A stretch of DNA of 64,000 nucleotides from Siderastrea radians (Eukaryota > Cnidaria > Anthozoa > Scleractinia > Rhizangiidae), in assembly GCA_964017195.1 (NCBI GenBank), contig OZ024897.1:37667036-37731035 (forward strand), read 5' to 3'. The notes beneath the pieces were generated by a model, which worked only from the letters and a program-made list of their open reading frames with translations, made no database searches and was not told the DNA's origin. Every line of letters starts with the position of its first letter. Within the stretch, counting starts at the first letter, position 1. The position numbers were made by a program, and so were the translations under genes. Below, piece after piece: positions 28,801 through 56,200 of the stretch.

Positions 28801-31800
28801 TTCAAATTGACCACATGGGTTTTTACCAGTTTTTGAACACGACGAGTACAATGAATTCAATATTTTATTTCACACTTTTTTACATAAATAATTGAAGATT
28901 ATAAATCAAAGCTAATCTAGAATAATAAACATTAGCCAAATCTGCATTATTGAATATAATTAAACTCAATTGAAAGTTCGCTATTAATGTATTAAGATAC
29001 TTATTTAGAATAATAAACATTAGCCAAATCGGCATTATTGAATATAATTAAACTCAATTGAAAGTTCGCTATTAATGTATTAAGATATTTAATCGCCATA
29101 CTAAATTATAATATGAATAGACCTTATTCATAAATGGCCGCCACTGAATTTCAACATCCAAAGGATCCATGACAGAAACGCATGGCCGTGTCAGGTACCG
29201 TGACACCTTGGGTTCAGGTCCGATAGGCTTCCTACACCTCTGAGTCGTACGAAACCAGAAAACCAATACATTTCTGCATTTAAGCCACCAAAGTCAAAAC
29301 CATAGTGTTCGACACATAGAATAAGTAAATGGGTGATATGGTACTTTACGGATAACATTGTTTTTTATGCTTTTCTTTTTTTAACTAGTGTTAAAGAAAT
29401 GTCTGATATAATTTCTCCAAGCTAATTCTTTTTTTTTTTCACTAATTCAGTGTTTTGTCGAGAGCCTTCGGGACATGGTTGTTGTAGCAAGAGTTATAAT
29501 CAAACCTAATTTGACCCATGGGTTCAGGCTAGTAATTTGTTGAAATCCAGTGAAACTAACATATGGTTGACCCATGGGTTAATGCTAGTAATTTCATGAA
29601 ATCCAGTAAAAACTCTTGGTAACTAACAGGACATGGTTGGCATAGCTTGGGTGATATGGTTGACCCATGGGTTCATGCTAGTAATTTGTTGAAATCCAGT
29701 AAAAACTCTTGGTAACTAACAGGACATGGTTGGCATAGCTTGGGTGATATGGTTGACCCATGGGTTCATGCTAGTAATTTGATGAAATCCAGTAAAAACT
29801 CCTGGGAACTAACAGGACATGGTTTAAACAAATTCCTAGGATGAACCGACACAGACAATGAATAGTGGATAATTAATAGTGGAGGTTGCAGCAATGTTAG
29901 AAAATATTTCTTTTTCGTTTTGGCTGTACTTTTGGCGGGATTTTGTACATTTACACGCGCGTCGCCGATTTCCCGCCTTTCAAACTTTCAAACGTTTTTT
30001 TGAGGGAACGACACAAAGAACGGCTGCGGGGCAGACATTTGTCAGCAAGGAAGACATACCGGCTTGTCTCGTCCCACGCAACGCTCTAGCTAACTAGTGT
30101 GGAGGGAGCGTTGCGTGACGACACTAAAGACGGCTGCGAAGGAGACTACGACTTGTCCTAATAATTACAGAAAAAATATTTACAAATTTACAAATTTTCA
30201 CTTATATTTACATTTTATTATATTTACAACTTTTACAATATATACATTTACAGAAAAAATAATTATTTACAAAGAGTCAGTACGAACACCATGCACAACT
30301 AAAACAATAAGGCCTATAATTAAAAATATCAAAATTAAAATTAAAAGGTACAAAATATAAGGTCTGCGTGGCACTTCGAATTCTGGTTCCAAGAGAAAAT
30401 GAGAAAAATAGATATATGTCTGTTTTATAACTTCCATATTTGCTCACCTTTTTCAAAAATTTTAATCGAGGGAACAATCAAATAGCTAGCCTGCGTAGCG
30501 GCTTTCGGGGAGGGGAGGGGGGACTGGGGCCAGGAAAGGAGGGGATGGGAGGGGAGGGGAGGAGGAGGGGAACCCATGGGTCCACCATATCACCCAAGCT
30601 TGGGTGATATTGGAAACTAATTGGACCCATGGGTTCATCCCAGGAATTTGTTTAAACCCTTTCCAATATCACCAAAGCTATGCCAACCATGTAATATTTG
30701 TTACCAAGAGTTTTTACTGGATTTCAACAAATTACTAGGATGAACCCATGGGTCAAATAAGTTCGCCCCCCCCCCCCCCCACACGTTTTTTTCTGGAAGA
30801 GCCCTTAAGATTTCAGAGGTTTTATGATAGGTAGATCAGTATAAATCACTTTAGCACATAGGGATTCTCTGGGGTTCTCAGTTATATGCCGAAGTTCTTC
30901 CTTGTGTTCTTGTTTTAATTGCAGGGTTTCTGTTAGCAATGTCTGGGTCTTGGCATAAGGCATACAAATGTAACATGCTACTCTCATCCAATCGTCTCCT
31001 TTGATACACTTCTGACGGCTCAATTCGCACATAAATTTGTTGTACTCCCTGACCATGATGGAGTTCTTATCCAGGGTTTTACTGGAAAGACTGACCGTTA
31101 ATTGAATAAGATACATTAAACCAAGGGAAAATGATTTTTTTTCATGGTCGGATCGTCCAGAAACTAAGACGAAATCATACCCTGGAAATTTCTGTTTTCC
31201 CGAAACATCAAGTGAAAACCAAATGTTGACATCATGACATGCTGCTTCTGTGCAGTTATCTTTGCAAAACAACTGATCAACAAGTCGTTTGCAATCAAAG
31301 GCCTCACAAATCTGTACGCGATGGAATTCATCTGCATACATATCGGTGGGACGCAGTCCACACTGATTGATGCGACAATAAAGGCGAACAATCAATTCGA
31401 AACATAGCCCTTTAAGAGATCCAGTGCTAGCTTCAAACACAGCCCGAGCATTTTCGAGCATTGCTTCGTCGCCACGGTCCTGTTGCCTACAAAATGTAAA
31501 GAATCTCAGCTGTTCACCTGGGGCAATCTCAAAGCCTGTGTCTGTGAAAGGGAAGAACTTGAAAGCCAGCTGATCTTCTGGGGTTTCATCCTTCATGTCA
31601 AAGGGGAAGATCTGCTTCCAAATGGCATTGAAGGATTTGTCGTTATAACCTTTCTTGTCTTGCATGAATGATAGAAAATGTTGCATGTCCCGGATAGTCG
31701 TCCTGAAGGTCTTTAGCTGTTTGGCCTCTTCAAAGGAGTGCTGTCGAATCAGGTAATAAGACCTATACCACACTATTGGCACTATTTGCGAAAGCGCAGA

Positions 31801-34800
31801 ATCTGTGTAGTCCACCATGCCCTGTTCTTTCTTCTCTTCAGTAGTAGTGTCCTCGTCTACAGTCATATGTAGCAGTGCCCCGCAAGTTGGGGAAACTTTC
31901 ATTAATTGTGTCACAGTCTCCTCACTCAGTTGTGTCAATGTAACTCCTTCCTCAACGGTCAGTGTCATATGAATAGTTTCTACTTTGACTTTCTTGGGAC
32001 ATTTAATCCAGTCGCTACTTGGAACAAAATGTCCAGAGGTGAACATTATGATGGGGAACTCACGACCCCTACAAACTGAAAGTAATTTGGTTGCCGAAAT
32101 GATGTCACAGTTGGCCTGGTCAAAAATTAACACCTTCGCTTCTATGGGATCAGGTACATGTACATGTACGTTGGGATCAGATGGAGGAGGCTTCATCATT
32201 GCATTTACTGTTGCCTCAGTGTCAGCTGCATTCATCTTATGAGAGAAGCTTCCGAACCAAGTAACTCCATAAACCAATCCTAGATAGGACTCTAATACTT
32301 GTGCGGTAACAGACTTTCCAATTGCTGGAATCCCGTAGTATATCAAAACCTTTCGTCTTTCGTGTGCTGCAGTTTGAAGTTCTGCCACCAAATCGTCTAT
32401 GATGTGTAACAATGCTGCTTTCAACGACTTCGTCATGAGATAAGAATAACCGCGAACTGTAATGAATCCTTCATCACTTTCGATCTTCAGCCTGAAAGAA
32501 AAATTTGAGAGAATAATAAATCAAACTTAACTTTTGTGAATCATATTACATAATGCGATATGTTTTTGCAGACCATGATTTACAAGACATATTTCTAGTG
32601 CCATTTCGTTGGGCCAAAAAACAAAGGTCGCCATTTGGAAGGTCATTTTTGTTTGGCCTTAGTGTTTAATATTAATTAATGTAACTTTTCATTTTGACCT
32701 TCCAAGTTCATGGAAGGTCAAATTGAAGGTCGCCATTTTGAAGGTCAAGAAATTAAACGCTAGCGAACATTAACATGTTTACAGTACTTTTACAACACTT
32801 ACTTTAATGCAGGTAGATCAGGAATGTCTACGTCCTTCGTCCAAGATCTGCAATGTTTCTCTTCCAGTCTACTGCTGTTTACAGTGGCAAGAATTGTTGA
32901 CAAATCTGATTTCGTTAGTTTTGGTGTTGGACCAGCTTCATGTACAATACCAGAGCGCCTGAAAAAATATTATTAAACTGATATGTATACTCAATGTAGG
33001 CCGTTCTTTATGATACAAGTGATAATCAAACAGGCAAAGCCTATACTTAAATCTTTTTAGGTCATTAAAATATTACCATGCATTGATATTTTCCAATCAC
33101 TTTCACTTAAGCATACAATAATTACAATCAGCATTTATATTTCGGTTGTTAGAAAACTTGTTTAACCGGTTTGTGCGTATTAGCCAATCAAAAATCGTAT
33201 TGCTGGTCATGTTGAGTAACGCAATGTCACGCGACAATAAAATGATTTCACAAAATTGTCCTTTTGGGCAAAAGTTAGACTTGCTCCAAGTCGCTCGTTA
33301 GATTCGCAGACCGCTGGATACGGAAACGGAGGGCGCGCGCGAGCATGAAAAACAAAATGGCAGAGGATCGTGCGGAACAAGCGACTTGTCTCACCTGCAG
33401 CGCGCCAATTCTGAAATGTGGCGTCACCGGTGGATTTTTCCACCGGTGACGCCATCGAGATTATGTCAATCATATTATTGCGCGCGAACTTACTGAGCGC
33501 GCTCTGCCCGCAAACTTAGCGCGCTCTGCTCGCGAGACAAGCTTGCGTTTAACTTTTTACTTCTTGAGTAGACTTGTTTCCTTCTCACATCGGCAGTTAA
33601 ACCAGTTTTGGAACAAACATTACAAATGTCTTCTTTTGTACCTGTCCCTTTTAAATCTTACAGAAATGAGAGAGCCATCAAGGGCCTTGAGTATGATTTC
33701 CCACAAAAAAGGGAAGAAAATCGCAATTTTAACACACGGCACGGCACGGCGCGCGTCAACTGCACACGGCGCACGAAACTGACGTCAACACGATAAAAGA
33801 AACCAACTCAATGCACACGAAATGATGCAATATTTTCGCGGCAAAAAACGTCAGCTAGAATCGATTTCCTGCAGGTGACACAAGTCGCTCGTTCCGAGCC
33901 ATTCCTCGATGAAGTGTCATTTGTTTTCCTTCGCGCGCGCGTTCACACAAATGAATCCCGCGCGATTTCAAAGGCGATTTTACTCAAGTGATCTTTCGCG
34001 CTTGATTTCAAAGCGATTTTATTTAAGTAACTATAGATACAAAGAAAAACGAGCGACTTGGGGCAAGTCTAGGCAAAAGTAAGTTCAGTTGGATAATAAA
34101 TAACTTAAAGGCTCGCCAAAATACTGCGTGACTCGTAAAATATCCAGCCATACTACACATCAAACCGTCTAATAAGATATATATATTCGGAAATAGCTAA
34201 GCGAATAATCTGGAGAATACAGTAGGTGTAAGTGGAGAAGGAACTTCAGGAGACTTGCGGCAAAACGTTGACTATATGCAGTGAAAAGTTGTTCAATGCC
34301 CAATCGCCACGATTTTAGCACAATACTCCGATGTAAAAAATCATGCTAAAACTTAAGTCTTACTCGCTCTACCCTGCTAGCAGAGGCCTCTTTTCTGTAT
34401 TTCGCTGGGTAGAGAAAAATACCTCTGGTAACATATTGTTTTTTCTTTGTCTGTGGCCGCGAGTACTTCACTTTCTCTTAGAAACCGCTAGTTTGTACTC
34501 TGTATCCTTATATGCCTTTTATGGTGTGATTTGGATTAAAGATTATTAAAGATTATTATATAAAACTTAAGCTTACTTCATCGTGTTGCTGTTGTCGGTT
34601 GTTCAGCTTGCAGATGCTAACAAACCCGACGAAAATTGTGAACCGACTGTGTTGTTGTATGTTGTTGCAAAGTCCCACGATAAAATGCGTTGTTTGAAAT
34701 TGAGCATGCGCACTCCTGTTCGCTGGATCACGTGGATCGCGTCCACCCCCATTCTCGTCCCCAGAGCCCACGATCCCTTTGGTCTGCGCCAGGGATCGAG

Positions 34801-37800
34801 ACCTCTGGCAGGGACCGAAGCAGGAAGTCCGCGAATCACGGACTTCCGGCTTTTGTGCGCAGCCTCAGAAATTTGAACAATAACGGTTACTATCGGTTAC
34901 AAAAATGGGCAGCTATTGCGCTTGCGCGTTACCTGGTCCCTGCCAGAGGTCTCGATCCTTGGCGCAGACCAAAAGGATCGTGGGCTCTGGGGACGAGAAT
35001 GGTCCACCCCTTGAGGCTTTGCGATACGCGGCGCGCGAAGAGTAACGACTGGGTACGAGTCTGTCAAAAGTTAACGGAAAAGAAAATGGAAACACGTTCA
35101 CGTCAACCTCGTACCCAGGCTCCTCTCTCTTCCTCCCTCGAGAAAGTACCCTGGTTTCGGCTGGTCACGTGGCACCCAAAATCTGGGTGCTAACAAGAAT
35201 GTACTTCATGGGAGGGGTAGCAAAGTGTAAGATTGTCACTAGTGTAAGGATGGTGGAAAGTACCGGAGGTGATGTAAGCTTTTTCAGGAATATTTGTGGT
35301 GATAAGAACTCCTTTTATAGACAAGTATTTCTTCATTACATACGAACGTTCGACATCGAAGCGGTCCATGTTATTTTCGACTCACAAAAACACGTTTACA
35401 AGTCTCTGAATTTCAAAACACTGTCGCTAACCATCGCCATAGTCAACGGAAGCCGGCACGAGTCACAACCTAACAAATTTACAACAAGGCGAGCCGTCGG
35501 CTTGACGCTTTACGGCGCTTGAAATGAAATGGAGTGTCAAGGATTAGGAAGGACTAATTTATTTTTGCATCTCCAAGGAGCAGCAGAATTTTCGGCAACC
35601 GTACACAAGACAGACAAACGGCGCGATGGTAAAATCAGATTAAATACGCCGCGCCAACCGACTGAGACCACCGTTCTTGTAAGAATTTGATGGTAATTTG
35701 TTTTATTCCTGTCGAGTAGGCGAAATTGCTCTCACACCGCCGATTGACCGAAAAAAAACCTAACTTTTTTCACCCAAAACAGTGACATGACAAAATGAAA
35801 AATGTGCTAAACTAAATAACATTTATAATTAAGAGCTTTGTTGACGGGAAAGTTGTACTCTCGTCTGCAGGATTTACACCATTACATTGAAGCTTGCAAA
35901 TAAAAATACACAAGTGCAGCGTGGGCTTTTATTATCAGAATTTTACTTGCATTATTAGGCCAATAAATAAAATATATAGCAAACAAATGAGTGTGTGACA
36001 TTTTGTTCGGGCAATACGAGCAGCTTCTTATCAAATTCAAAACAGATCGAGCCTACCGTAAAATAGTTTGTTGATGGGAAATCTGCATTATTTGTGCTTC
36101 TGAAACGCCGCAGATAGTAGACTGTAGATTTTTTCAACGTCCCTGTCTTTCAAAAAAAGTGAGCTAATGACTTCCATTCCTCTGTCTTCGTGCCAGTGTG
36201 AAAAGATTTGCATTCGCTTTTCCCTTCGCTTCTTGAAGAAAAGCGAGTCCACCCTGGTGGGGAGCTGTTTGCTTAAGGGAGACACGTGACCAGCCGAAAC
36301 CAGGGTACTTTCTCGAGGGAGGAAGAGAGAGGACCCTGGGTACGAGGTTGCGTTCACGTGAGTATTCAGAGCAGATTCACCGGCAATATCCTGGTTGTCG
36401 ATTCACCATGGGTTCACCATGGGTTCATTCTGTAGTAGTGGGCCGAATGCAACAAATTATTTTGAAATTAAATTGTTGTGTGCTGGATCCAAGATGGCGG
36501 ACAATTTTGCCGCCGAAACACATCTTGTCGAAAAAAGACCTTTTCAATGTGGCTGGATCCAGATGAGATATGATCCAGCCAAAAGTCCGTAGAACTCAGC
36601 GAAACTCCTCAGTATCGCCAGGGTAATATTTTCAATTAATTTATTGGAAGCTAGTTTGAAAGTTTGAAAGGCGGGAAATCGGCGACGCGCGTGTAAATGT
36701 ACAAAATCCCGCCAAAAGTACAGCCAAAACGAAAAAGAAATATTTTCTAACATTGCTGCAACCTCCACTATTAATTATCCACTATTTTTTTGTTTTTAAT
36801 TTGGAGTTGAGTGCAAATTTTGAAATTTTTGAATGCACATTTTTAAATTGTTGAGTGCAAAAACGTGAAATTGAATTTGATTGGCTAGTCGGTTCAAACT
36901 AGCCAATCAAATTTTCACTTTTTTGCACTCAAAAGTTCAAAATAAATTTGGGTGCTCTCAGCCAATCAGATTGCAGAAATTTTTGTATGTATATTATTAT
37001 GCAGATTATAAAAACAGTAATCATAAAAAAATGGAAACATTTTCGATGCAAGTGAAAGCAAGTTTTGTTGATAAAATCTGTCGTTCGCGAACTGTCGAAA
37101 TCAATGAAGATCAACAACTTTTCCGGCACTTCATAAAACTGCACTTTGACGAATTTCAGAGTTTTATAATCACGACAAAAATGTTTTGAGTATCGGTGAA
37201 ATTCTAGATCTGGATATGAAAAGTAGCTTTTCTAAAAACGATAATTTGTTGATTGTTTTTTTAGCACTCTTTAGGTCTGCAGTGGCTCTAAAAGAGCCAG
37301 TATTTGCATTTATGGTCATGACTTTTTTGGTCTGTGGTGGCTCCGAAAAGAGCCGGTTTTAGCATATATGGTCATGACTTTTTTGGTCAGTGGAATAAGA
37401 GAGCATGAGTCATGACTTTATCATATGTGGTTGGCTCTGAAAAGAGCCGTTGTTAGATGCTGAGCTCCATCGATCAGTTCAGCGTGTGATGTATAAATCG
37501 ATGTCGATGTGTAATAAATGAATCGGCAATGCTATATTTTTTCCCACAACACTGCATTTCGAAGCCTGGGTGCTGTTTAAAAAAAACCCGCACATAGTTC
37601 CTCCATGACAAATTCTTTATACCCTTCTTGTAGAACTGTCCATCTGTTCGTGATCTTGCTTTCTTGGAGAATTGTTTCGAATTCTCCCGCTTGCTGATCT
37701 CCTCGACTAAATTGTCTTGGAGACTGGTTGCATCCTCCGTAGCACTCGCTACCATCTCTGGCTGACTGTCGTCAGCTTCCTCTGTAGCACTCGCCTTCCT

Positions 37801-40800
37801 CTTCTTCCGGCGGTTGCCGAAGGCTGCTACCATCTCTGGTGGTAAATTTTTCACTGGTTCCCAAGTGTTCTGATTTTCATAGTTAAGCCATGAAACGAGC
37901 AATTCTACTCTTCCGTTTCTCTTTCTTCTCTTTAGGATCTCTTTGACGTAAAATATTCCTGGTAGTATTTCTGGCTCTGGCACCTTCCGTTTTGACATCT
38001 TGGCGGTTGTGATTAACGGCGTCCGTCCCTGCCCCCTTTTAACCACTCCTGCGGATCGGAATCAAAGCGTTTTGATTGGTTGTTCACGAGAGCCAATTAG
38101 AAGCGAATTAGAACAAAGACGGTAATCACAATAAAATCATGCAACCGGTGCCAAGCCCGGGAAAACGTGCAACCGGTTCCAAGCGCGGGAAAATGTGCGG
38201 TGCCAAGCGCGGGAATATAGCGGCCGGTGCCAAGCGCGGGAAAAGCACGGTAAAACATGCAACCAGTACCTGATTGGCTGAAGAAACGGTACGTTTTCTC
38301 TGATTGGTTAGAGTTCATTGTACAAAATTTAAAACAGCAACATTTGTAAACCCAGCCAACTAATCAATAGTTAATGACAATAAACTGTAAGGAGGTATAA
38401 CATGACTCTGTCGTTGTTTAGGGTTACCCTGCAGAGCTCCTTCCGGTCACGGTAGCCGGCATTCCTTCAATGCACATCTGTTTGGACTTCATTTGTGAGC
38501 TCGTCAACCAACCACAACTGGAAAAACAGGTTAGAAACATTTCTGATACTGGACTGTTCCCTTGTAGCACACTCTTCAGTTTTCGGGCGATGATGGATGA
38601 CACCAGGCAATACTTTCCTTTGTTGCTAATTGATTGTGTTGTACAATGAGGTTCTGTCAGTGGACTAAGTGGTTCTAACGGTTGAGTCTGTGGATGAAAT
38701 CTTTACTTTCATTTGACGCCGTTGGTTGCTTGTTATTTCATTTGATTGCCTTTGGAAGTGAAAGGGTCGAGTCGTAATAATAGCTATCAATGATTTTTCT
38801 TTTCTTTTGCAGTTATTTGCCATCCAGCTGGCCTCCTACCTCTGTATGCAGTTTCCTCTCCCCAAAGCCATGGGCGTGGCCCGGTACATTCTCAGCCGGC
38901 TCAGTTCTTTATTGGCTACACTTCCAGCCTCCAAACGTGCGTCATTTTTCACGCCTACCCTCCCGACCCTGGTCAGACTTTGTCGTACATTTCCGCCATT
39001 GTGTGATGAAGCTACGGGATTTCTATTGGAGCTTGGTCGTGTGGCCGCTTCTCATGCGTCAGCATCTGCTGGTCATTCTCTAGGTATGCTGCTTTTTATT
39101 TTGAAGTCACTCTGGGTTGCCACTTATTACTATGATGCACTGCTGTGTCGCAATGCTGGTTCTACTTAAACAATAAAGTTCTTCTGTCGAAGGCACTATC
39201 ATGTGATATGTTGCCCGAGGAAATTTGATGTTCACACTAAATATGATATGAAGTTTGAACATCAAATTTCGGAGGGAACCTACCACACATAGGGCCTGAG
39301 ACAGAAGAACTCTATTGTTTTTATTGTACAACGCTAAATTTTGAGCGAAAATTGCGAAAAACGGGCACTATGCACTGATAGGCGTCCGCTGAGGAGAGAC
39401 ACTATCGCGTCACGTGATCGAATTTGACCAACTGGAGCACGCCAAAATTTAGCGTTGTACTATACTTGTCTTGAGGTGCTAAAGAACTACCGTAAAATAG
39501 ACCTATCACAATTATATTTTCCATGAGTTCCTAGATTATCTTGGGCTACTTGTTGAGGATCTAACTTTTCAGGAAGAAGGTTTGACAATTAAAACCAAAT
39601 TCCCCGTGATGAGAAGTGTAAAAGTACTGTTTGTAGAAGGAAGAATTTGATACTATCTACTCAATCCTCTTGATTGAACGAACCTGGGCCCGGTTGTTCA
39701 AAGAGCGGATAGCTCTATCCACCGGATAAACCCCTATCCAGCGGATAGTGTACTTGTTTTCTTATCATTTATCCGCTGGATAGAGATTTATACGGTGGAT
39801 AGCATTATCCACCCTTTGAACAAATGGGCCCAGGTGGATTATTAAGGCCTGTGTCCGTGCCATGAAGCGACTAGGAGTATCTCTACTCCCTGCATGGGAT
39901 GCTGGTCTATCGCAGGGTTACCACCTGTTGTAAAGGCTTCATCTACCGTCGGTGACATGGCTTTTGCGGCGGCTGCGCCTAAATTATGGAACCAGCTACC
40001 GTCAGAACTAAGGAGAATCACTTTCATCGGTCATTTTAAGCGAGCTCTGAAGACATATCTTTTTAAACAAGCTTTTTATTAGTGTGCAGATATAATTTTA
40101 ATTTTTAATTTTGAATCTATATTTTATTTTATTTTTTTAATCTATTTTTTTAATCTAATTTTTTAATCTATATTTGTAACGCGCATTTGAAAATCTATGT
40201 TGAATTTGCGCGCTATAAATGCATATTATTATTATTATTACCCCCCAGCTTTAGTTTTTGAGGATTTCCTAACGGTTCGCTGGCACCCATTTATACAACT
40301 GGTTTCGAAAGTCCTACGCGACGAGCACTACATCATCGCGATTCATTTGCTAAAGAAACGCGAATGTTCGTAAATGTCCTCTAAGCACAAAGTTTTCGTT
40401 TGTGACTGTTTTAATTCGCAATAGTCCACAAGGGAGATTTAAAACTGAGTGCATATGAGGGAACGACCGAATACGACTTCTCGAAATTAGCGTGCATGCT
40501 TCAGATTATAACATAGTACCTAATTCTCAATAATTTTCTCGTGCACTTAGTTCGCGACAGTTCGGGAGCTGAATTTGGCGAGAATTAATCTAACAGTACA
40601 TGCTACACCAAGCTTACGTTTTACACCAATCTCATCCCCAGACCCCCCCCCCCCTTTTCTCCAGGGGCCCGTTTCTCGAAATTTCTGATAGTTTGCCGGG
40701 CCCTATTAGTTAATTTTCTTTTTATCAGATTGATTGGTTATTATTAGTGCAAACTTGTCTTCCATAAAATTTTAAAGATTTTAAAATTGGTCTTGAATAA

Positions 40801-41292: not shown

Positions 41293-44029
41293 AATATCTT
41301 CTACTACTTGCTCTTAAGACTTGGATCGTTTTGTCGCCAAGCATGGTGCACTATTGGCGCTCGTCTTGCGCCCCACGAGGTGCAAACACGCGTTGCCAGA
41401 CATCTTGCTTCATACGGTTGTGTCAGTCAACGACTTGGATTGATGCCTCATTGGTGTAACGATTCTTTCACAGAAAAATAAACAAGATGCTCACTTGGAT
41501 CTGGCTCGGACGTTAAAAGAGAGGAGGAAGCCAACTGACTCTTGATGGACACCGTTAGGGGGATATCTTTCTGAAACTGAACAGTCAAGACTCAATGGTG
41601 ATCAACCTCGTTCCCAGGGTCTTTATCTCCCCCGCTCCCTCTGGGTTGGGGAGATGAGAGATCCTGGGAACGAGGTTGAATGGCTATTTCAGAGTAAGTT
41701 AGTCTAACAAAATGTCACCTCATATCGCAGGAGAGAGAGCGGAAACTGAGAATGAGGCTAGCCTTGAAAATGTCGGGGCAAAGACTGTAATAATCGGTGA
41801 CCACCATTCAAAGAAGAGGCAGCGCACGCTTGACCAGTGTTTCGAAGATTTGGCATGTTTGAGTCGAGTATCCATCCAAAATTGACAAATTTGCGAATGA
41901 AGAATTTTCAATGTTCAATGTAAATTAACTGGAGGGATTTCCGTGGAAATCGGAAATCTCGTAAAGAACTTTCAATTCCTCCTTGCAATTTGGATTTTTC
42001 ATTTCAACTTACGCGCAAATTAGGAGACGATTCAAATGTTCGAAATCCCTGTCACGCGCGATGTAGGTGGGAAACTCTAAAGGATCCCCTACAATTTGGG
42101 AGTCGTATTACTCCCATAAAAACGACTGCTGGTCGCCAGGAACAACAGAATACATATATACAGTTGAGATATACTTTCCGTGAAGCTTACTCCTTTGCTT
42201 TACACCTCGTACTGTATAAATCCAAAATTGATGTAGATATCCATTAAAGATGGGAAAAAAATGTATTAAAGAATTCAACCTTTTGCTACGGTGGGGTAAT
42301 GTGGGGTAATGTGAACTGGCTAGGGGCATGCGCTATTCCAGGGCCCAGAAACGATGACGTCTGCTTGTCGCTTACAGGAAATGATGTTGCCTAGTGGCAA
42401 AGTCGTTGACTTTACACGCGGGCTTGGGCAATTCTTGGAGACGTGAATATTTAATCACTGGAAAGTTACTAGTGAGCGTGGTTATGTGGGAAAAAAGTCG
42501 AAGAGAGAAGGTTTGAATTGTTTTTGTTTTATATTAACGAAGCTCATTTTCAATCATAAGCAAATTTAAGGTATTCTCACAAAAATCGAAAAGGGGTAGT
42601 TGGTAGATAGCTAACCGACTGCCTTACACATGCATTCTAATGCGCTAATTACTTGCTACTTAAAGTGGCTTACTACAGTTTTCAGAAGAGAAAGATAACC
42701 TTATAAATCTTTAGTTTAAAGCCAACAGGAGTTTTGTTTTGGATATTTCTCGCCTTAACTGTTGAAAGAAATGATATTCTGGAAAAGAGATACCAGAAGC
42801 TTGGAAAATATCAAATATAACAGACCGAGCGCTAGGAGGGGACTGGAAACGACTTTTCAGGGCCTTTTTTCCTCAAAATCTAGCTTTACGACCCTACCTC
42901 AGATTTTCAGGATTTAGAAAGTGACTATAAATTAACACCTATGCAAAAGAAAACGAAGATCTGTAAGAGAGATTTTTAGTAATTCTCAAAAAGGCCAAAA
43001 TTCAACATTTTCTTCATTGGGAAAACTTCTGCCTTGCAGATTTTCATTTTCTTTTGCACAGGTGTTTATCTATAGCCGCTGTCCAAGGTGGTGACGGAGA
43101 AAATCTCCCATGAATATACCGAGATGAAATTAATTTGCTAATTAAAACGAGAAAAAGTCAAGGTACTACTGCAAACACTTAATAGGGCACTGAAAGACTG
43201 GAATTGTGCTAATCTGCGAAGTGAAGAGTTCTAAGCGATTTTTGCTTGAAAATTGTACAGTATTCTTCATTAGTTATGCAATGCAACTTTAATTTGACCT
43301 TCGATTACAATAAACGGTCCACGCAGATGCGGACATGACATGAGCGTGGATTTGCGCAGCTTTAAATAAGATCTGACAATATTAAGGATACAAGTGACAG
43401 TGCAGTTTCTGAAAAACAAGTCACGTCTTGTGTGACTTGTACTTTCATCACGTCTCGCGGCCGGGCAATGTAACACAGTATCAAAACTAAAAATGGCAGT
43501 GTTCTCCAGAGATTTTATAGGAGGCGGTTGGAAATTGAGAGTAGCCGGCACTTGGCAATGGAGTGGCCGAAGGGCACGAGTCTCTAGGGGGGTCCAGGGG
43601 CATGCTCCTCCGGAAAATTTTTGAAAGTTATGCAGCTGGAAAAGCAATTTGGGGCATTTTAGGGCCACTGCAGAGAGAAAAAATATATATTATTTTTGCT
43701 CAGTTTCTGCACAAATTTGGAATATGTAAGCGACCCTCCAATGGATTATGCAAGAAAAGGTGAATACACAGACACGCAGAAATGATGGTCTTTACCATAA
43801 GCAGTGAAAGAAATGCCACACATGGCTTGCCATATTAAATTTTCCTTTTGTTGTTAACCCACTCAAAAATGCAAAACCAAAGCCACGTGTCCAAAAATGT
43901 GGGATGAGTCCTCAAAACAAGTAACCCATATAAAACAACACTAGTGAGCAAAATTTGATCGGGTCGCTGCTTTCGCCATTAGACATTCTAATAACAGACA
44001 CTACCAAATATCATACCCACAAACTGACG
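41293..44029. other. INTS2 3' flank and intergenic DNA
   Basis: An AATAAA signal near 41476 could end the INTS2 mRNA. Otherwise I see a 76-bp mini-element (41603-41678) and no supported gene. The open frame 43270-43668 (minus) has no family features. AGTAGCCGGC at about 43540 recurs near 52305. Confidence 0.5.
41603..41678. mobile_element. 76-bp miniature relative of the 35104-36350 element
   Basis: The ends CAACCTCGTTCCCAGG and CCTGGGAACGAGGTTG match the larger element's ends with one change. The 9-bp flanks AATGGTGAT and AATGGCTAT agree at seven positions, a decayed target duplication. Confidence 0.75.
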
Positions 44030-44389
44030 TATGAAGAAAACGTTTGAAAGACAAGACTAATCGTTGCCGCACAAACGAACTAACATACGGACAAACGTTT
44101 AGAAGGACAAGACTTCCCCCGCACAGAACAAGTAACATATGCGGAGAAAGGTTTAGAAGACAAGATCAATGCCGTACAAACGTACTAATGTACAGAGAAA
44201 CACTTAGAAGACAAGATCAATGCCATACAAACTGACCAACTGAAGTACGGGGAAACGTTTAGAGGACACGACTTTTCCCATACAAAGGAACTTATGCACA
44301 GAGAAACGTTTATAAGACAAGACTAACGTCGTAACGTATAGAGAAAAATGTTAAGAAGACAAGACTAACGCCGTAACATATAGAGAAAC
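44030..44389. repeat. Minisatellite, left part (interrupted by the 7.2-kb element)
   Basis: Diverged units combine GAAACGTTTAGAAGACAAGA, CTAACGCCGTA and CAAACGAACTAACGTAC.G at about 50-60 bp spacing. The same array resumes at 51603. Confidence 0.85.
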
Positions 44390-44668
44390 AGTAGTATAGT
44401 AAAATGGGTGTTCTGTAACAGGCTTTATGAGAGCGTGCTTTATACGACAAAACACACACATGAAAATGAGGGTTCTGGCACAGAAATTTTAAAAGAAGTT
44501 TAATTCCTCGAGAAAAAAATGTAGGATAACATGTTTTCACTTGGATATCCACCGACGAAAATGGGAGAGTGGCGCGAACAAAAAATATCCTGAAGCAGGA
44601 GAAATTCGAGAACCTGGCCGGCAAAGGCAGATCGTCCAAATAATCTTAGCCAAACTTTCCAACATCCA

Positions 44669-45229
44669 GTGCAAGAAAGAGGAGGATGCACACGAATAGA
44701 AGTAACTTTGTACGCTCTTCCTCAACAAAAACTTGATTGTTTGCAAATCAAAATAGAAGGAGCACGAAGTTTTCAAAACAATTGTGTGAAATTCAATTCG
44801 AGCCGCACCAAACAAAAAACAAATTCCAACATGCAGTGTATAGGTTCCAAATGCGAAGAGTACAAAAAATATAGAAGAGAATTAGCAAAACACTATTTAC
44901 AAGAATACCCCCCGAAAACAAAAAAAACGAAAAAAACCACAAACCTGCCAGCAAGAAGGAGAGCATTACAATTTTTGGAAACACCCAAGAACAATTCTTT
45001 TCCTGCACCCGGGGAAGAAAAAACAGACAAAGAAACACCAACACATAGAATATTTTTGGAAAAAGAGATTTCTGAAATGGGCGCGTTAGGCGCCGCGTTG
45101 TTTGCTTGGAGAAGAAAAAACAACACCCAACAAGAGAAAATGCCACAGAGTTGCATACAAGTTCAGCGCTTTTGGAATTTTTACCTGCTTATGACAAAAG
45201 CAAGGAATTTTCTAAACAGGAACAATTGA
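44669..45229 (+). CDS. Element ORF A, left arm (unknown, basic)
   Basis: About 186 residues from a GTG that may not be the true start; the frame is open from just after a TGA at 44591. The protein is Lys-rich and hydrophilic (PPKTKKTKKTTNLPARRRAL) with a short Ala/Gly stretch (MGALGAALFAWRR). No family recognised. A strong acceptor (TTTTTGCTTTTTCAG at 45293-45307) follows, so this could be one exon of a spliced gene. The right-arm copy is identical in protein, including a synonymous change, which argues mildly for coding. Confidence 0.5.
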   Translation: MQERGGCTRIEVTLYALPQQKLDCLQIKIEGARSFQNNCVKFNSSRTKQKTNSNMQCIGSKCEEYKKYRRELAKHYLQEYPPKTKKTKKTTNLPARRRALQFLETPKNNSFPAPGEEKTDKETPTHRIFLEKEISEMGALGAALFAWRRKNNTQQEKMPQSCIQVQRFWNFYLLMTKARNFLNRNN

Positions 45230-45307
45230 TCCACCTTCGAAACAGAAAACAAACCCCAAGAAACAACATATAGTTGGTCCCAATCTGCCCATTTTTTGCT
45301 TTTTCAG

Positions 45308-45554
45308 AGTGATATGCCCGACAATTTGTCTTGTAAAGAAGAAACAAACTTTCGAAGAGATGCTCAATCTTTGCAACAAATATTTTCTTGCCGCTGCAGG
45401 TGCAAGAATGGAATTTTTTGTATGGATTTCCTTTTTCCCAACTTCCATTGCGAAAAAACTTTTTCTGTTTTTCAACAAATATGGCGAAATTCCAACAAAT
45501 TTGGAAAAGTGGGGATATATCAGCAGGGGTGTGGCGGAAAATAATCATTATTAA
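45308..45554 (+). CDS. Element ORF B, left arm (possible exon)
   Basis: It starts just after the acceptor at 45293-45307. The frame containing KKQTFEEMLNLCNKYFLAAA and SIAKKLFLFFNKYGEIP ends at a stop at 45552-45554. An overlapping frame is also open, so the reading frame is uncertain. A hydrophobic segment (FFVWISFFPTSIA) could be membrane-inserted. No homology recognised. Mirrored at 50434-50680. Confidence 0.35.
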
Positions 45555-45564
45555 CAACATCTTG

Positions 45565-45680
45565 GGAGCTGGCAGTGATGGTGGCGATGAAGGCGGTGAT
45601 GGCGGTGGCGATGGTTGTGTGATGACGGTGGTGGCGTTGAATGTGAAGATGGAGGTGATTGCGGTGATGGTGGTATCTAC
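45565..45680. repeat. GGTGGCGATG-type trinucleotide-rich stretch, left arm
   Basis: Repeated GGTGATGGCGGTGGCGATGG words, mirrored in the right arm at about 50308-50423. It separates ORF B from ORF C. Confidence 0.7.
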
Positions 45681-45732
45681 ACCATAGCCCAGAGTTATAA
45701 AAATGATAGAAAAAAAAAGTTATAACGAAAAT

Positions 45733-46131
45733 ATGGGTTCTAATACAAGTAAATATAGTCTTTCTGCTATGCGAGTTTATTCTGAAAATAAAGTCAAATA
45801 CCGTCTTTTGCAAGAAGCAATGTATTTAGATGAAAAAAATTTAAAATATGATGGTGGAGATAATGAAACTATTGCATTGAATATAGAAGTTGTAATATGT
45901 TTGAATTACATTGTTAATTGTGTTGATAGAATAAGTGATATTACCTTTTTATTTCAAACGACTAACTCAATAAAATTGGATGAATCATTATCAAAATTTT
46001 TTATAATTGAGGAAATATATCAACTAATTGAAACCTTTTTTGAAAAATTAAACTGGTTTTTATTTGATATTAAATACAATATGACAAAATTAGGTAGTTT
46101 GATAAAAAATACAATTATGAAAAAGAATTAA
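45733..46131 (+). CDS. Element ORF C, left arm (possible N-myristoylated protein)
   Basis: ATG at 45733 opens MGSNTSKYS, which fits the N-myristoylation pattern (Gly2, Ser6). The protein is acidic to neutral and helical-looking (ETIALNIEVVICLNYIVN, then IIEEIYQLIETFFEKL). The frame stops at 46129-46131. The -1 frame is open across this point and runs on with similar composition to 46481, and an A AAA AAT heptamer sits at 46104-46110. No family recognised. Mirrored exactly at 49857-50255. Confidence 0.5.
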   Translation: MGSNTSKYSLSAMRVYSENKVKYRLLQEAMYLDEKNLKYDGGDNETIALNIEVVICLNYIVNCVDRISDITFLFQTTNSIKLDESLSKFFIIEEIYQLIETFFEKLNWFLFDIKYNMTKLGSLIKNTIMKKN

Positions 46132-46481
46132 CAAAGTATGAAGTTTATCAAACAATTTCAGTAAATAAAATTGAAAACCATTCAAGCGAACTAAAGAACT
46201 TAATTAATTCAAAGCTTGAATTGTATCCAAAAAATTATTCATTACTTGAAGAAAAATCTGATATTGAAATTGTAAAGAAAATAATGAAAAAGATTGAGAA
46301 AGAAATTAAAAGTATGGAAGAAAAAAATAAAGGTATTGGTAAATACCATGATGACTTTACAAGTTTTCACACCCCCAAGTTAAGTAAAACCCCCTCCCTA
46401 ACAAGTTTCTTTATACCGCGCCCGAGTCGGCATAAAAACTTGTTTTCCGCTCTTCTCACTAGTTTGAAAATGTATAAATAG
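46111..46481 (+). CDS. Element ORF C extension in the -1 frame, left arm
   Basis: Open in the -1 frame relative to ORF C, Lys/Glu-rich and likely coiled coil (IVKKIMKKIEKEIKSMEEKN). No good independent start lies near its beginning, which suggests it is joined to ORF C by frameshifting, splicing or an ancestral frame now broken. The last ~45 residues are of different composition and may not be real. Confidence 0.4.
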
Positions 46482-46608
46482 CTCACAATACGCCAAAAAG
46501 CAATTCAATTTACTTCTTAATATTTCATTCAATCCATAAACATTTTGATGTGTGTTTTCAACAGTAACTGTTTTATCAGCCCATCTTGTTTTTTCTCTCT
46601 ATTTTCAG

Positions 46609-46872
46609 GATTTGACAAATCTTTTCAGAGCCCCAGCCCCTTTCAACGGTATCTGTTCAGACAAAGAATCACGATTTTATAATATTTTTGAAGGGCTGCT
46701 AAATAATAGGAGAAGAAGAGGGGGGCGGCGGGCCCAGAGCAGAGCGAGGGCGAGGGCCCAGATAAACGTAAAGAAAGTTTCTGCGGAAAAGCGGAAAAAT
46801 CAAATTGGGCGCAAAAACAGTACTGTCCCAAATGGACAACAAATTTCAAATGGACGAATGAAAAAAGTTTAA
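46609..46872 (+). CDS. Element ORF D, left arm (very basic, core-protein-like)
   Basis: The acceptor CTATTTTCAG at 46599-46608 opens a frame starting DLTNLFRAPAPFNGICSD, followed by an Arg-rich run (RRRRGGRRAQSRARARAQ) and a Lys/Asn-rich end. An ATTAATAAA-like polyadenylation word follows at about 46884. The Arg-Gly run resembles DNA-condensing core peptides of adenovirus-like and Polinton-like viruses, but short basic proteins are easy to mis-assign. Mirrored at 49116-49379. Confidence 0.45.
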   Translation, partial: DLTNLFRAPAPFNGICSDKESRFYNIFEGLLNNRRRRGGRRAQSRARARAQINVKKVSAEKRKNQIGRKNSTVPNGQQISNGRMKKV

Positions 46873-47344
46873 GGAATTCGAGTTAATAAAGAAAAAAAAT
46901 TTTCCATATGGTCGTTGGTGTGAGTTTTGCAAGAAAAGAGGGAGCCCCCGAGAAGAGAGATGAAAGTGATTTAAATCCAAAAAAAACACGCCCGGGCGCC
47001 AAGTAAAAAACAGCCAGTTTACCGCGGGAATGTGCTCGGGAGCTTGATGATATTGGTGGGTGTTTTAAAATTTTTGAAAACTCTCTTCCTCACTTACTAC
47101 TTCTGAAAGCCGGTAAACAACGGGCGGGCGAAAACAGACAAAGAGAATCCAACAAATCAAATCCTATTCAGTTTTTTTTAGAAGTACTTCAAAGAAATTT
47201 CAAAAAAAATTTAATTAAAAGAGAATTTATATAAAAATTTTTCAAAAAAAACTGAATGTTTTTATATAAAGTACAAAAAAGTTTTTGAAAAAAATAACTA
47301 ATCAACAAAAAAAATAATTATTCAACAAAAATATGTTGAAACAG

Positions 47345-47815
47345 GCTGTAAAGGGGTGCGTGCTGCATGAAACGGGGCAGGTGTAGATAAATAAGCCGGC
47401 CGTTGACGGGGCGCGTACTGCATGAAACGGGGCGATATGCCGGCCGTTGACGGGGCGCGTGCTGCATGAAACGGGGCGATATGCCGGCCGTTGACGGGGC
47501 GCGTGCTGCATGAAACGGGGCGATATACCGGCCGTTGACGGGGCGCGTGCTGCATGAAACGGGGCGAGTGTAGATAAATATGCCGGCCACTCATGTTACG
47601 GGGCGGGTGTAAATAAATATGCCGGCCGCTTGCTACACGAAACGGGGAGGATGATGCATTACATGCCGGCCGCCGAAACGGGGCGATATACCGGCCGCTT
47701 GCTTCATGTTACGGGGCGTTATACCGGCCGCCGAAACGGGGCGGATGATGCATTTCATGCCGGCCGTCGACATGAAACGGGGCGGATGATGCATTTCACG
47801 CGCCGGCCGGAGAAA
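47345..47815. repeat. GC-rich ~44-bp tandem repeat in the element's centre
   Basis: The unit CCGGCCGTTGACGGGGCGCG plus TGCTGCATGAAACGGGGCGATATG repeats about four times almost exactly, then degenerates into ACGGGG / GCCGGCCG words to 47815. It contrasts sharply with AT-rich surroundings. Confidence 0.9.
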
Positions 47816-47958
47816 GGAGGTTATGATTGTAAAGATGCAATCAAAAAACTAAAAAAATAACATATTCATCTATTCATGAAATGGCTTTAAGTTATCAATT
47901 TGTACTAAATCTAAAAATTTACTTACCAGCGTCAAAAGAGCATCTGCTCCTTTACTTT

Positions 47959-48318
47959 TTATTCCTTTACCAATTTCAATGAATTTCCACAAAAAGTCAT
48001 CATGAATTTTTTTGTTTCTTCATGCAATGTTTTTTTACATTCTTCTGCTTCTAATTTTATTTCTTCTATTATTATTTTTGCGTATAAGTTACGACGATTT
48101 TTTTCAAACTTTTCGCACTTATCAATGATTTTTTGAATTGTTATTTCATTTATTTTGTCTTTTTCTTCATACAGTTTTATCAGTCGTTCTAATAAACTGA
48201 AGATCAATAATACAAGACCACCACCAGCTGCCAAACTTTTCAAGCCAACATTTTGCAATTGATTTGAATTTGTTGTTTCAGTACTACTCGCAGTATCTTG
48301 TGCATTAGTTGCGCTCAT
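47959..48318 (-). CDS. Element central ORF E: single-pass membrane, coiled-coil protein
   Basis: 119 residues from an ATG at 48318 (context ATTGTCGTC..). A Ser/Thr/Asn-rich N-terminus of about 26 residues is followed by one hydrophobic segment (LAAGGGLVLLIFSLLERLI, about 29-47) and a charged helical region rich in Glu/Lys (KINEITIQKIIDKCEKFEKN). No family recognised. It is one of only two frames unique to the centre, so it is present once per element. Confidence 0.55.
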   Translation of the reverse strand: MSATNAQDTASSTETTNSNQLQNVGLKSLAAGGGLVLLIFSLLERLIKLYEEKDKINEITIQKIIDKCEKFEKNRRNLYAKIIIEEIKLEAEECKKTLHEETKKFMMTFCGNSLKLVKE

Positions 48319-48410
48319 TGTCGTCGTATTGTTGAGTAAATGAGTTTTTGTTTATCAATTTTAATCTGGTGTTTGAAATGATTGGCAAAAATTTATGAGA
48401 TTTCAGGGCC

Positions 48411-48512
48411 GCCGGCCGCCAGCGCTTGCTACATTAAACGGAGCGGCTGTAATAAGCCGGCCGCTTTCTACATGTTACGGGGCGGATGATGCATTACATG
48501 CCGGCCGCCCTA
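48411..48512. repeat. Second GC-rich block, same words as 47345-47815
   Basis: GCCGGCCGCCAGCGCTTGCT, ACGGAGCGGCTGTAATAAGC and ACGGGGCGGATGATGCATTA flank ORF E on its other side. ORF E is thus bracketed by the GCCGGCCG / ACGGGGCG words. Confidence 0.8.
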
Positions 48513-48538
48513 TTGAAATAATGTATCTCTTGTATTAA

Positions 48539-48832
48539 ATGGCTGGCTCAACATCTTCAATGGCATTTCAAAATGACACATTTGAAAAAACAGAATTCTC
48601 TCCAGTTTTTTATTCAACACAATTAATATGCAGAATTTGTGAAAAAAAATATAAAAGTACAGCTTGGTTTGAAAAACATGTCAAAAAATGTAATGAAACA
48701 TTTTTTTGCTGTTGTGGTCTTAATTTCAACAGCAAAAAAGATTATAATTGCCACAAAAATACATGCGATAAATATTTAAGTAACGCGGCAATTGGCTGTT
48801 ACTACTCTCTCTTTAAAAAACATAGGATTTGA
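48539..48832 (+). CDS. Element central ORF F: C2HC-type zinc-finger protein
   Basis: 97 residues from an ATG at 48539. Two zinc-finger-like units are visible: CRICEKKY..WFEKHVKKC (C-x2-C...H-x3-C) and CCCGLNFNSKKDYNCHKNTC (C-x-C...H-x4-C). These suggest DNA or RNA binding. The stop lies 11 bases inside the right arm (arm starts at 48822). No named family. Confidence 0.6.
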   Translation: MAGSTSSMAFQNDTFEKTEFSPVFYSTQLICRICEKKYKSTAWFEKHVKKCNETFFCCCGLNFNSKKDYNCHKNTCDKYLSNAAIGCYYSLFKKHRI

Positions 48833-49115
48833 TTTGTTGGATTCTCTTTGTCTGTTTTCGCCCGCCCGTTGTTTACCGGCTTTCAGAAGTAGTAAGTGAG
48901 GAAGAGAGTTTTCAAAAATTTTAAAACACCCACCAATATCATCAAGCTCCCGAGCACATTCCCGCGGTAAACTGGCTGTTTTTTACTTGGCGCCCGGGCG
49001 TGTTTTTTTTGGATTTAAATCACTTTCATCTCTCTTCTCGGGGGCTCCCTCTTTTCTTGCAAAACTCACACCAACGACCATATGGAAAATTTTTTTCTTT
49101 ATTAACTCGAATTCC

Positions 49116-49379
49116 TTAAACTTTTTTCATTCGTCCATTTGAAATTTGTTGTCCATTTGGGACAGTACTGTTTTTGCGCCCAATTTGATTTTTCCGCTTT
49201 TCCGCAGAAACTTTCTTTACGTTTATCTGGGCCCTCGCCCTCGCTCTGCTCTGGGCCCGCCGCCCCCCTCTTCTTCTCCTATTATTTAGCAGCCCTTCAA
49301 AAATATTATAAAATCGTGATTCTTTGTCTGAACAGATACCGTTGAAAGGGGCTGGGGCTCTGAAAAGATTTGTCAAATC
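49116..49379 (-). CDS. Element ORF D, right arm
   Basis: Mirror of 46609-46872. A C/T difference lies just before the acceptor; the exon part encodes the same protein. Confidence 0.45.
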   Translation of the reverse strand, partial: DLTNLFRAPAPFNGICSDKESRFYNIFEGLLNNRRRRGGRRAQSRARARAQINVKKVSAEKRKNQIGRKNSTVPNGQQISNGRMKKV

Positions 49380-49506
49380 CTGAAAATAGAGAAAAAAAAC
49401 AAGATGGGCTGATAAAACAGTTACTGTTGAAAACACACATCAAAATGTTTATGGATTGAATGAAATATTAAGAAGTAAATTGAATTGCTTTTTGGCGTAT
49501 TGTGAG

Positions 49507-49877
49507 CTATTTATACATTTTCAAACTAGTGAGAAGAGCGGAAAACAAGTTTTTATGCCGACTCGGGCGCGGTATAAAGAAACTTGTTAGGGAGGGGGTT
49601 TTACTTAACTTGGGGGTGTGAAAACTTGTAAAGTCATCATGGTATTTACCAATACCTTTATTTTTTTCTTCCATACTTTTAATTTCTTTCTCAATCTTTT
49701 TCATTATTTTCTTTACAATTTCAATATCAGATTTTTCTTCAAGTAATGAATAATTTTTTGGATACAATTCAAGCTTTGAATTAATTAAGTTCTTTAGTTC
49801 GCTTGAATGGTTTTCAATTTTATTTACTGAAATTGTTTGATAAACTTCATACTTTGTTAATTCTTTTTCATAATTGT
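49507..49877 (-). CDS. Element ORF C extension (-1 frame), right arm
   Basis: Mirror of 46111-46481 with identical frame structure. Confidence 0.4.
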
Positions 49878-50255
49878 ATTTTTTATCAAACTACCTAATT
49901 TTGTCATATTGTATTTAATATCAAATAAAAACCAGTTTAATTTTTCAAAAAAGGTTTCAATTAGTTGATATATTTCCTCAATTATAAAAAATTTTGATAA
50001 TGATTCATCCAATTTTATTGAGTTAGTCGTTTGAAATAAAAAGGTAATATCACTTATTCTATCAACACAATTAACAATGTAATTCAAACATATTACAACT
50101 TCTATATTCAATGCAATAGTTTCATTATCTCCACCATCATATTTTAAATTTTTTTCATCTAAATACATTGCTTCTTGCAAAAGACGGTATTTGACTTTAT
50201 TTTCAGAATAAACTCGCATAGCAGAAAGACTATATTTACTTGTATTAGAACCCAT
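49857..50255 (-). CDS. Element ORF C, right arm
   Basis: Mirror of 45733-46131. It starts MGSNTSK, carries the same heptamer (49878-49884) and has the same stop. Confidence 0.5.
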   Translation of the reverse strand: MGSNTSKYSLSAMRVYSENKVKYRLLQEAMYLDEKNLKYDGGDNETIALNIEVVICLNYIVNCVDRISDITFLFQTTNSIKLDESLSKFFIIEEIYQLIETFFEKLNWFLFDIKYNMTKLGSLIKNTIMKKN

Positions 50256-50433
50256 ATTTTCGTTATAACTTTTTTTTTCTATCATTTTTATAACTCTGGG
50301 CTATGGTGTAGATACCACCATCACCGCAATCACCTCCATCTTCACATTCAACGCCACCACCGTCATCACACAACCATCGCCACCGCCATCACCGCCTTCA
50401 TCGCCACCATCACTGCCAGCTCCCAAGATGTTG

Positions 50434-50680
50434 TTAATAATGATTATTTTCCGCCACACCCCTGCTGATATATCCCCACTTTTCCAAATTTGTTGGAATT
50501 TCGCCATATTTGTTGAAAAACAGAAAAAGTTTTTTCGCAATGGAAGTTGGGAAAAAGGAAATCCATACAAAAAATTCCATTCTTGCACCTGCAGCGGCAA
50601 GAAAATATTTGTTGCAAAGATTGAGCATCTCTTCGAAAGTTTGTTTCTTCTTTACAAGACAAATTGTCGGGCATATCACT
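50434..50680 (-). CDS. Element ORF B, right arm (possible exon)
   Basis: Mirror of 45308-45554, with the same acceptor upstream. Confidence 0.35.
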
Positions 50681-50758
50681 CTGAAAAAGCAAAAAATGGG
50701 CAGATTGGGACCAACTATATGTTGTTTCTTGGGGTTTGTTTTCTGTTTCGAAGGTGGA

Positions 50759-51319
50759 TCAATTGTTCCTGTTTAGAAAATTCCTTGCTTTTGTCATAAG
50801 CAGGTAAAAATTCCAAAAGCGCTGAACTTGTATGCAACTCTGCGGCATTTTCTCTTGTTGGGTGTTGTTTTTTCTTCTCCAAGCAAACAACGCGGCGCCT
50901 AACGCGCCCATTTCAGAAATCTCTTTTTCCAAAAATATTCTATGTGTTGGTGTTTCTTTGTCTGTTTTTTCTTCCCCGGGTGCAGGAAAAGAATTGTTCT
51001 TGGGTGTTTCCAAAAATTGTAATGCTCTCCTTCTTGCTGGCAGGTTTGTGGTTTTTTTCGTTTTTTTTGTTTTCGGGGGGTATTCTTGTAAATAGTGTTT
51101 TGCTAATTCTCTTCTATATTTTTTGTACTCTTCGCATTTGGAACCTATACACTGCATGTTGGAATTTGTTTTTTGTTTGGTGCGGCTCGAATTGAATTTC
51201 ACACAATTGTTTTGAAAACTTCGTGCTCCTTCTATTTTGATTTGCAAACAATCAAGTTTTTGTTGAGGAAGAGCGTACAAAGTTACTTCTATTCGTGTGC
51301 ATCCTCCTCTTTCTTGCAC
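50759..51319 (-). CDS. Element ORF A, right arm
   Basis: Mirror of 44669-45229. The protein is identical despite one A/G difference, which is synonymous in this frame. Confidence 0.5.
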   Translation of the reverse strand: MQERGGCTRIEVTLYALPQQKLDCLQIKIEGARSFQNNCVKFNSSRTKQKTNSNMQCIGSKCEEYKKYRRELAKHYLQEYPPKTKKTKKTTNLPARRRALQFLETPKNNSFPAPGEEKTDKETPTHRIFLEKEISEMGALGAALFAWRRKNNTQQEKMPQSCIQVQRFWNFYLLMTKARNFLNRNN

Positions 51320-51602
51320 TGGATGTTGGAAAGTTTGGCTAAGATTATTTGGACGATCTGCCTTTGCCGGCCAGGTTCTCGAATTTCTCCTGCTTCAGGA
51401 TATTTTTGTTCGCGCCACTCTCCCATTTTCGTCGGTGGATATCCAAGTGAAAACATGTTATCCTACATTTTTTTCTCGAGGAATTAAACTTCTTTTAAAA
51501 TTTCTGTGCCAGAACCCTCATTTTCATGTGTGTGTTTTGTCGTATAAAGCACGCTCTCATAAAGCCTGTTACAGAACACCCATTTTACTATACTACTGAA
51601 AC

Positions 51603-52210
51603 ATTTAGAAGACAAGATCATTGTACAAATGAACTAACGTACAGAGAACGTTTAGTGGAAGACAAGACTTCTTCCGTACAAACGAAATAACGTATGAAGA
51701 AAAGACTAACGCCGTAACGTACGGAAAACCATTTATAAGACAAAATGAATGCATTACACACGAACTAACGAGCGGAAAAACGTTAAGAAGGCAAGACTAA
51801 CGCCGTAACGTGCGGAAAACCATTTAGAAGTCAAAATGAATGCATTACACATGAACCAACGAGCGGAGAAACGTTAAGAAGACACGACTAACGCCGTAAC
51901 TTGCGGAGAAACGTTTTGAAGTCAAGATTAATGCAGTACAAACGAACTAACGTGCAGAGAAACGTTTGAGAAACGTCTAGAAAAAAAAAGAGTAACGCCC
52001 TAACGAGAATGATGGAAGAAAAAACTAATACCGTACGAAAAGAAGTAAAAAAAAAAAAACAAGAATGACGCTCTCTGACAAATGAGCTGACATACGTAAA
52101 AACGTTGAGGAAACAAGAGAAACGGTAGTAGTATACAAATGAACTGGAGTACAAAGAAACGTTCAGAAGCAAGGGTGACCAATGCCTACATATATACGAA
52201 CCGACGTAGC
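51603..52210. repeat. Minisatellite, right part
   Basis: Continuation of the array at 44030-44389 (ACATTTAGAAGACAAGATCA, GAACTAACG.GCGGA.AAACG, ACGCCGTAACGT). The two parts form one array split by the 7.2-kb insertion. Confidence 0.85.
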
Positions 52211-56000: not shown

Positions 56001-56200
56001 NNNNNNNNNNNNNNNNNNNNNNNNNNNNNNNNNNNNNNNNNNNNNNNNNNNNNNNNNNNNNNNNNNNNNNNNNNNNNNNNNNNNNNNNNNNNNNNNNNNN
56101 NNNNNNNNNNNNNNNNNNNNNNNNNNNNNNNNNNNNNNNNNNNNNNNNNNNNNNNNNNNNNNNNNNNNNNNNNNNNNNNNNNNNNNNNNNNNNNNNNNNN
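56001..56200. other. Assembly gap (200 N)
   Basis: Exactly 200 N bases, a conventional placeholder of unknown true size. It is followed closely by an (AAT)n microsatellite. Confidence 0.99.

Follow-up and report, generated by a model that had tools for sequence, protein, structure and literature searches.

A 7.2-kb virus-like element with long gene-bearing inverted arms in an animal chromosome, probably a truncated derivative of a Polinton/Maverick

What sort of mobile element devotes 77% of its length to two inverted arms, and how could it have come to do so? We address this question for a mobile, virus-like element of 7,208 bp (positions 44390-51597) in an animal chromosome, within a window of 64,000 nucleotides (the whole stretch of DNA that was analysed). 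The window holds animal-type nuclear genes, with four pieces that match INTS2 at 10.8-22.6 kb on the + strand and, at 9.2-10.4 kb on the - strand, a BTB-BACK-Kelch gene. Two further open frames lie outside the element. The first, of 571 aa (30805-32520, - strand), has no Pfam match above cut-off and includes GIPAIGKS, which we take by eye to be P-loop-like; the second, of 195 aa (37474-38061), encodes a chromodomain (Pfam E 7.7e-07) and may be either a host gene or what is left of a transposon integrase.

Using blastn and global alignment, we found inverted arms of 2,778 bp and 2,776 bp that flank a centre of 1,654 bp and are 99.86% identical to each other (Table 1). The alignment reproduced exactly the bounds of the original prediction, which had been made from the letters of the DNA and had described near-identical, gene-bearing arms of ~2.78 kb around a unique centre, with the same ORF set in each arm; the main reading frames are indeed common to both. 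The three differences between the arms that had been counted became four, namely two substitutions (L45145/R50843, A/G; L46595/R49393, C/T) and two single-base differences in the length of A runs (at L44580 and L46892). Such near-identity would mean that the duplication or its last homogenisation happened recently on the time scale of mutation, or that the arms are kept alike by conversion. The centre itself has no palindromic structure. As a separate observation, the outer arm (44390-45560) has strong strand asymmetry, with an AT skew of +0.234 compared to a mean of 0.001 (sd 0.082) among 45 windows from elsewhere, with 0.295 reached in one of them.

Table 1. Positions of the element, its parts and its insertion site within the window
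Feature	Position	Strand	Basis or remark
Left arm, long terminal inverted repeat	44390..47167	+	blastn and global alignment
Right arm, inverted copy of left arm with 4 differences	48822..51597	-	blastn and alignment
Unique centre	47168..48821	.	alignment
Terminal motif AGTAGTATAGTA, starting with (AGT)2	44390..44401	+	pattern search; motif reported in PMC8097293
Terminal motif AGTAGTATAGTA at right end, (ACT)2 on + strand	51586..51597	-	pattern search
Target duplication GAAAC, left copy	44385..44389	+	flank comparison
Target duplication GAAAC, right copy (GAAACA if the left end lost a terminal A)	51598..51602	+	flank comparison
Degenerate satellite hosting the insertion, tandem units of ~42-91 bp	44000-44389 and 51598-52200		
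211-aa stop-free stretch, outer arm	44594..45226	+	coding status doubtful
Arm ORF, 142 aa; second copy at 49857-50285 (-)	45703..46131	+	no family match
Second frame of the arm, 127 aa between stops	46098..46478	+	frame listing
Inverted repeat with its foot at the left arm's inner end; fold-back may have occurred here	47166..47257	+	
GC-rich minisatellite, 44-bp and related units; further copies at 48423-48509	47353..47809	+	
Centre ORF, 119 aa, with relative P0003	47959..48318	-	protein database search
Centre ORF, 97 aa, zinc-finger-like cysteine/histidine pattern	48539..48832	+	ORF list, PDB, Pfam

The ends of the element read AGTAGT...ACTACT, i.e. (AGT)2//(ACT)2, which is the commonest end motif of vertebrate Mavericks, and such end repeats have been associated with jumping back in the course of protein-primed replication (PMC8097293). 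With up to one mismatch allowed, the first 12 bases, AGTAGTATAGTA, are confined within the window to the two ends of the element. Assuming equal base frequencies, the chance that a random end matches any of the three reported motifs is at most ~0.0007 (3 in 4096), and the end boundaries were fixed independently both by the arm alignment and by the target duplication. A 6-bp end motif described for vertebrate elements is thin evidence of membership. From this motif by itself, protein-primed replication with a terminal protein would be predicted.

Immediately outside the element, we found the direct repeat GAAAC that had been noted at both ends; it is the sole exact match between a left-flank suffix and a right-flank prefix for lengths of 1-14. 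Counting the first A of the left end with the flank extends the match to 6 bp (GAAACA), and by inspection both readings yield an identical empty site. Target site duplications (TSDs) are 5-6 bp in mavirus and Maverick/Polintons (PMC8547959), and the proposal of Polinton-type ends with a compatible duplication thus agrees with what we found. However, intact vertebrate Mavericks have TSDs of 6 bp (PMC8097293), and the simplest reading here, 5 bp, counts against a Polinton.

The satellite into which the element is set has the same orientation to the left and to the right, and its units resemble GAGAAACGTTTAGAAGACAAGACTAACG on both flanks. Removing the element along with one 5-bp copy produced a join that matches another satellite unit at 83% in an alignment of 88 positions, with a single gap located away from the join and none across it. 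Hence, the satellite flanks, the duplicated 5 or 6 bp and the restored unit indicate that the element entered a satellite array. The fold at the element terminus is unremarkable (z -0.99).

We searched for hallmark genes with every stop-free stretch of 100 aa or more listed for the left arm and centre (15 in total) plus two shorter ones, some entered as the ATG- or GTG-started ORF instead of the whole stretch. Among these 17 ORFs/segments, no Pfam match to a polymerase, integrase, capsid, ATPase or protease was above the curated cut-off, and no transposase was matched, which is a weak test for a non-autonomous copy. DUF1746 (E 0.0082) and DUF5452 (E 0.011) fell below their Pfam cut-offs and were taken as chance. 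Similarly, eight ORFs/segments gave nothing above the curated cut-off in NCBIfam (best E 0.017, treated as chance), and the best PHROGs match for seven ORFs/segments was phrog_36664, a family of unknown function, to the 119-aa ORF (E 0.0033, taken as chance). These profile searches bear out the claim that no hallmark Polinton gene is recognised and support the description of a non-autonomous, virus-like element. Hence, since no core gene was matched, we file the element as a probable truncated derivative of Polintons, based on its ends and duplication, and not as an autonomous member.

Searches of virus, phage, plasmid and RNA collections yielded no confirmed relative. In the viral contig collection, five window proteins found no confirmed relative and a 21-base end pattern found none; a 17-base end pattern found seven loci, and these have no blastn (E ≤1e-3) or tblastx match to the element. 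Element DNA had no match among phages, and the one plasmid record (92 bases at 73.7%) was set aside. Rfam families were absent from 44200-51800, and the tRNA search found none.

Each arm probably carries a gene. The 142-aa ORF has a stop-free length of 147, a length reached 3 of 300 times when its region was shuffled, and its G+C content is lowest at the third codon position (0.17 vs 0.28 and 0.23). A GT..AG intron of 68 nt (46094-46161) could join it to the 127-aa frame; alternatively, an old frameshift separates the two. Such an intron would be unusual for a Polinton-type element, since introns are lacking from the conserved ORFs of intact vertebrate Mavericks (PMC8097293) and from all EMALE genes (PMC8547959). 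For the 142-aa ORF, PDB sequences gave no match, prokaryote genomes gave 37 pattern matches with none confirmed, and the protein database returned, among seven candidates, only the window's own protein, on one contig of 1,110,954 bases. Subject to database content, this single contig hints at a low copy number. The AlphaFold models have a mean pLDDT of 54.8 for the 142-aa ORF and 58.7 for the 97-aa ORF. In the outer arm, the 211-aa stretch is equalled in length in 2 of 300 shuffles, and its codon positions are nearly flat in G+C (0.40, 0.41, 0.35); hence, we do not count it as a gene. Its Pfam match to Denso_VP4 (E 0.0045) scored 16.9 bits against a cut-off of 27 and was rejected, with little codon-position signal in the frame.

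The centre provides the only relative found. We found that the 119-aa ORF is 69% identical to P0003, a protein of 118 aa, over 109 aligned positions (E 1.4e-33); P0003 and the window's own protein were the two proteins at E ≤0.1 among 42 candidates. The length of the ORF is unremarkable: a stop-free run as long as its own (130) arose in 28 of 300 shuffles when the entire centre was shuffled and in 10 of 300 when only 47850-48830 was. At the P0003 terminus, KKIHDD matches the window in another frame (six residues; alone E 8.8), and the copy here may have a frameshift or an assembly error near that point. With P0003 as query, no relative was confirmed in the viral contig collection and none was found among phages; its weak alignment within the outer arm, to lysine-rich sequence at 44810-44944 (E 0.023), was set aside. 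The best match of the 119-aa ORF to PDB sequences (E 0.16) was taken as chance.

The second centre ORF in Table 1, of 97 aa, matches PDB entry 5b3h (E 0.0021) and is below cut-off with C2H2 models (E ~0.07); the protein database gave no match. Some adintoviruses have zinc-finger regulator genes (PMC11071296, in excerpt). This frame crosses the right inner boundary, such that its last codons and stop are within the right arm, which is compatible with truncation of a gene and its fusion to a copied arm, but would be just as likely had the right arm been the original. The fold at this boundary is unremarkable (z 0.11). At the left inner boundary, the inverted repeat has a DNA fold z of -1.74, and 11 of 200 shuffles fold as well or better, which is marginal. 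Apart from these features, the minisatellite has the recurring words GCCGGCCG and GAAACGGGGCG and 61% GC over 47350-47820, and the CpG observed/expected ratio in the centre is 1.4.

From these results, we infer that the element is probably a truncated, non-autonomous Polinton/Maverick-type element whose terminal repeat was rebuilt through protein-primed replication and which was mobilised in trans. The ancestor would have been a longer linear DNA, replicated from each terminus by a protein-primed DNA polymerase, that lost one end along with its core genes. The lost end would have been restored from the surviving one once a displaced strand had folded back, or had switched template, close to the break, and extension of the copied strand to the surviving terminus would yield identical arms with origins at both ends. 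The terminal repeat would thereby have been enlarged to 2.78 kb, absorbing the adjacent accessory reading frames; the inverted repeat and the 97-aa frame are inner-boundary details compatible with such fold-back copying. A complete relative would have supplied the polymerase and the integrase in trans, and this rve integrase would have inserted the element into the satellite array with a target duplication of 5 or 6 bp. A Polinton is known from the coral Stylophora (PMC11071308, in excerpt); hence, should the host be a coral, a helper of this kind can be envisaged.

The element is unlikely to be a fold-back-like DNA transposon from a different superfamily that has very long terminal inverted repeats (TIRs) and is moved by a conventional transposase acting in trans. 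Such transposons exist, such as Galileo of the P superfamily, in which inverted repeats also make up much of the element, and a simple 5-bp TSD is a possible reading here. However, the ends of our element match the Maverick motif, and the excerpts of PMC4168063, the source for Galileo, mention no (AGT)2 ends; Galileo has a P-superfamily transposase and TSDs of 7-8 bp in D. willistoni, whereas our element has a 5-6-bp duplication and no transposase match among its 17 ORFs/segments.

We consider it decidedly improbable that the element belongs to a new virus-like family with an inherently palindromic structure, replicating via a hairpin or dimer form and keeping duplicated genes as a fixed trait. 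The near-identical, gene-bearing arms, the lack of recognised genes and the existence of P0003 in other sequence data fit this possibility. Yet P0003, the sole relative found, comes from a 2,244-bp contig (tagged 'lgn') of unseen context, arms as a fixed trait have been seen in no copy, and (AGT)2-type tandem ends are those linked to protein-primed jumping back (PMC8097293); such ends would speak against closed hairpins. The hairpin or dimer family raised in the original prediction is not supported: a truncated protein-primed element that rebuilt its terminal repeat accounts for this structure too, and a parallel for it has been published (PMC8547959). An assembly artefact, i.e. a palindrome from fold-back reads or mis-joining, is extremely improbable: a 200-N gap at 56001-56200, 4.4 kb from the element, shows scaffolding and two of the arm differences, out of four, lie in homopolymer length, but an artefactual palindrome is expected to mirror its flanks too, whereas the outer flanks consist of distinct stretches of satellite that share one orientation, the centre lacks palindromic structure, and the ends carry a TSD; removing the element with one copy of the TSD leaves a satellite unit that is gap-free at the join.

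If the truncated-Polinton explanation is right, the element is an animal Polinton analogue of truncated virophages with regrown terminal repeats, in a minimal form of ends and accessory genes that would depend on a helper. It also offers a concrete sequence for testing how protein-primed elements repair a lost end, and whether satellites of Polintons exist. It is quite unlikely that the element represents a family of animal virus-like satellite replicons of Polintons, with genes stably duplicated in expanded terminal repeats and nothing beyond the ends and a few accessory genes. A literature search by exact phrases (e.g. 'non-autonomous Polinton'), with subscription papers and Repbase outside its scope, found none, and the excerpts of PMC6431247, PMC10120064 and PMC4168063 do not describe such an element. 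The letters of the end motif in an excerpt of PMC12945077 are a primer and were set aside.

Compared to Polinton/Mavericks, including those of adintovirus type, the element shares the (AGT)2//(ACT)2 ends, the TIRs, a TSD compatible with 5-6 bp and ORFs of unknown function, as might be found in accessory regions. It differs in having no recognised core genes and in its proportions, since intact vertebrate Mavericks are 12.7-24.6 kb with terminal repeats of 46-1,447 bp (PMC8097293), whereas the element is 7.2 kb with TIRs of 2.78 kb. Its arms also exceed the 0.2-2.3 kb TIRs of 33 complete EMALE virophages, whose TSDs are mostly 3-5 bp (PMC8547959). Long TIRs are hence less unusual among such elements than the original prediction implied: they occur in both Mavericks and EMALEs, but 2.78 kb is beyond both ranges. 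A published parallel is provided by the truncated Cafeteria EMALEs Cflag_215, RCC970_122 and BVI_005, which are flanked by TIRs said to have been regenerated after truncation; these were assigned to types 4 and 8, and truncated type 8 has no recognisable morphogenesis genes (PMC8547959). Unlike these typed elements, ours has no recognisable gene and lies in animal DNA; like them, it is short and TIR-flanked, and it fits this pattern with Polinton ends.
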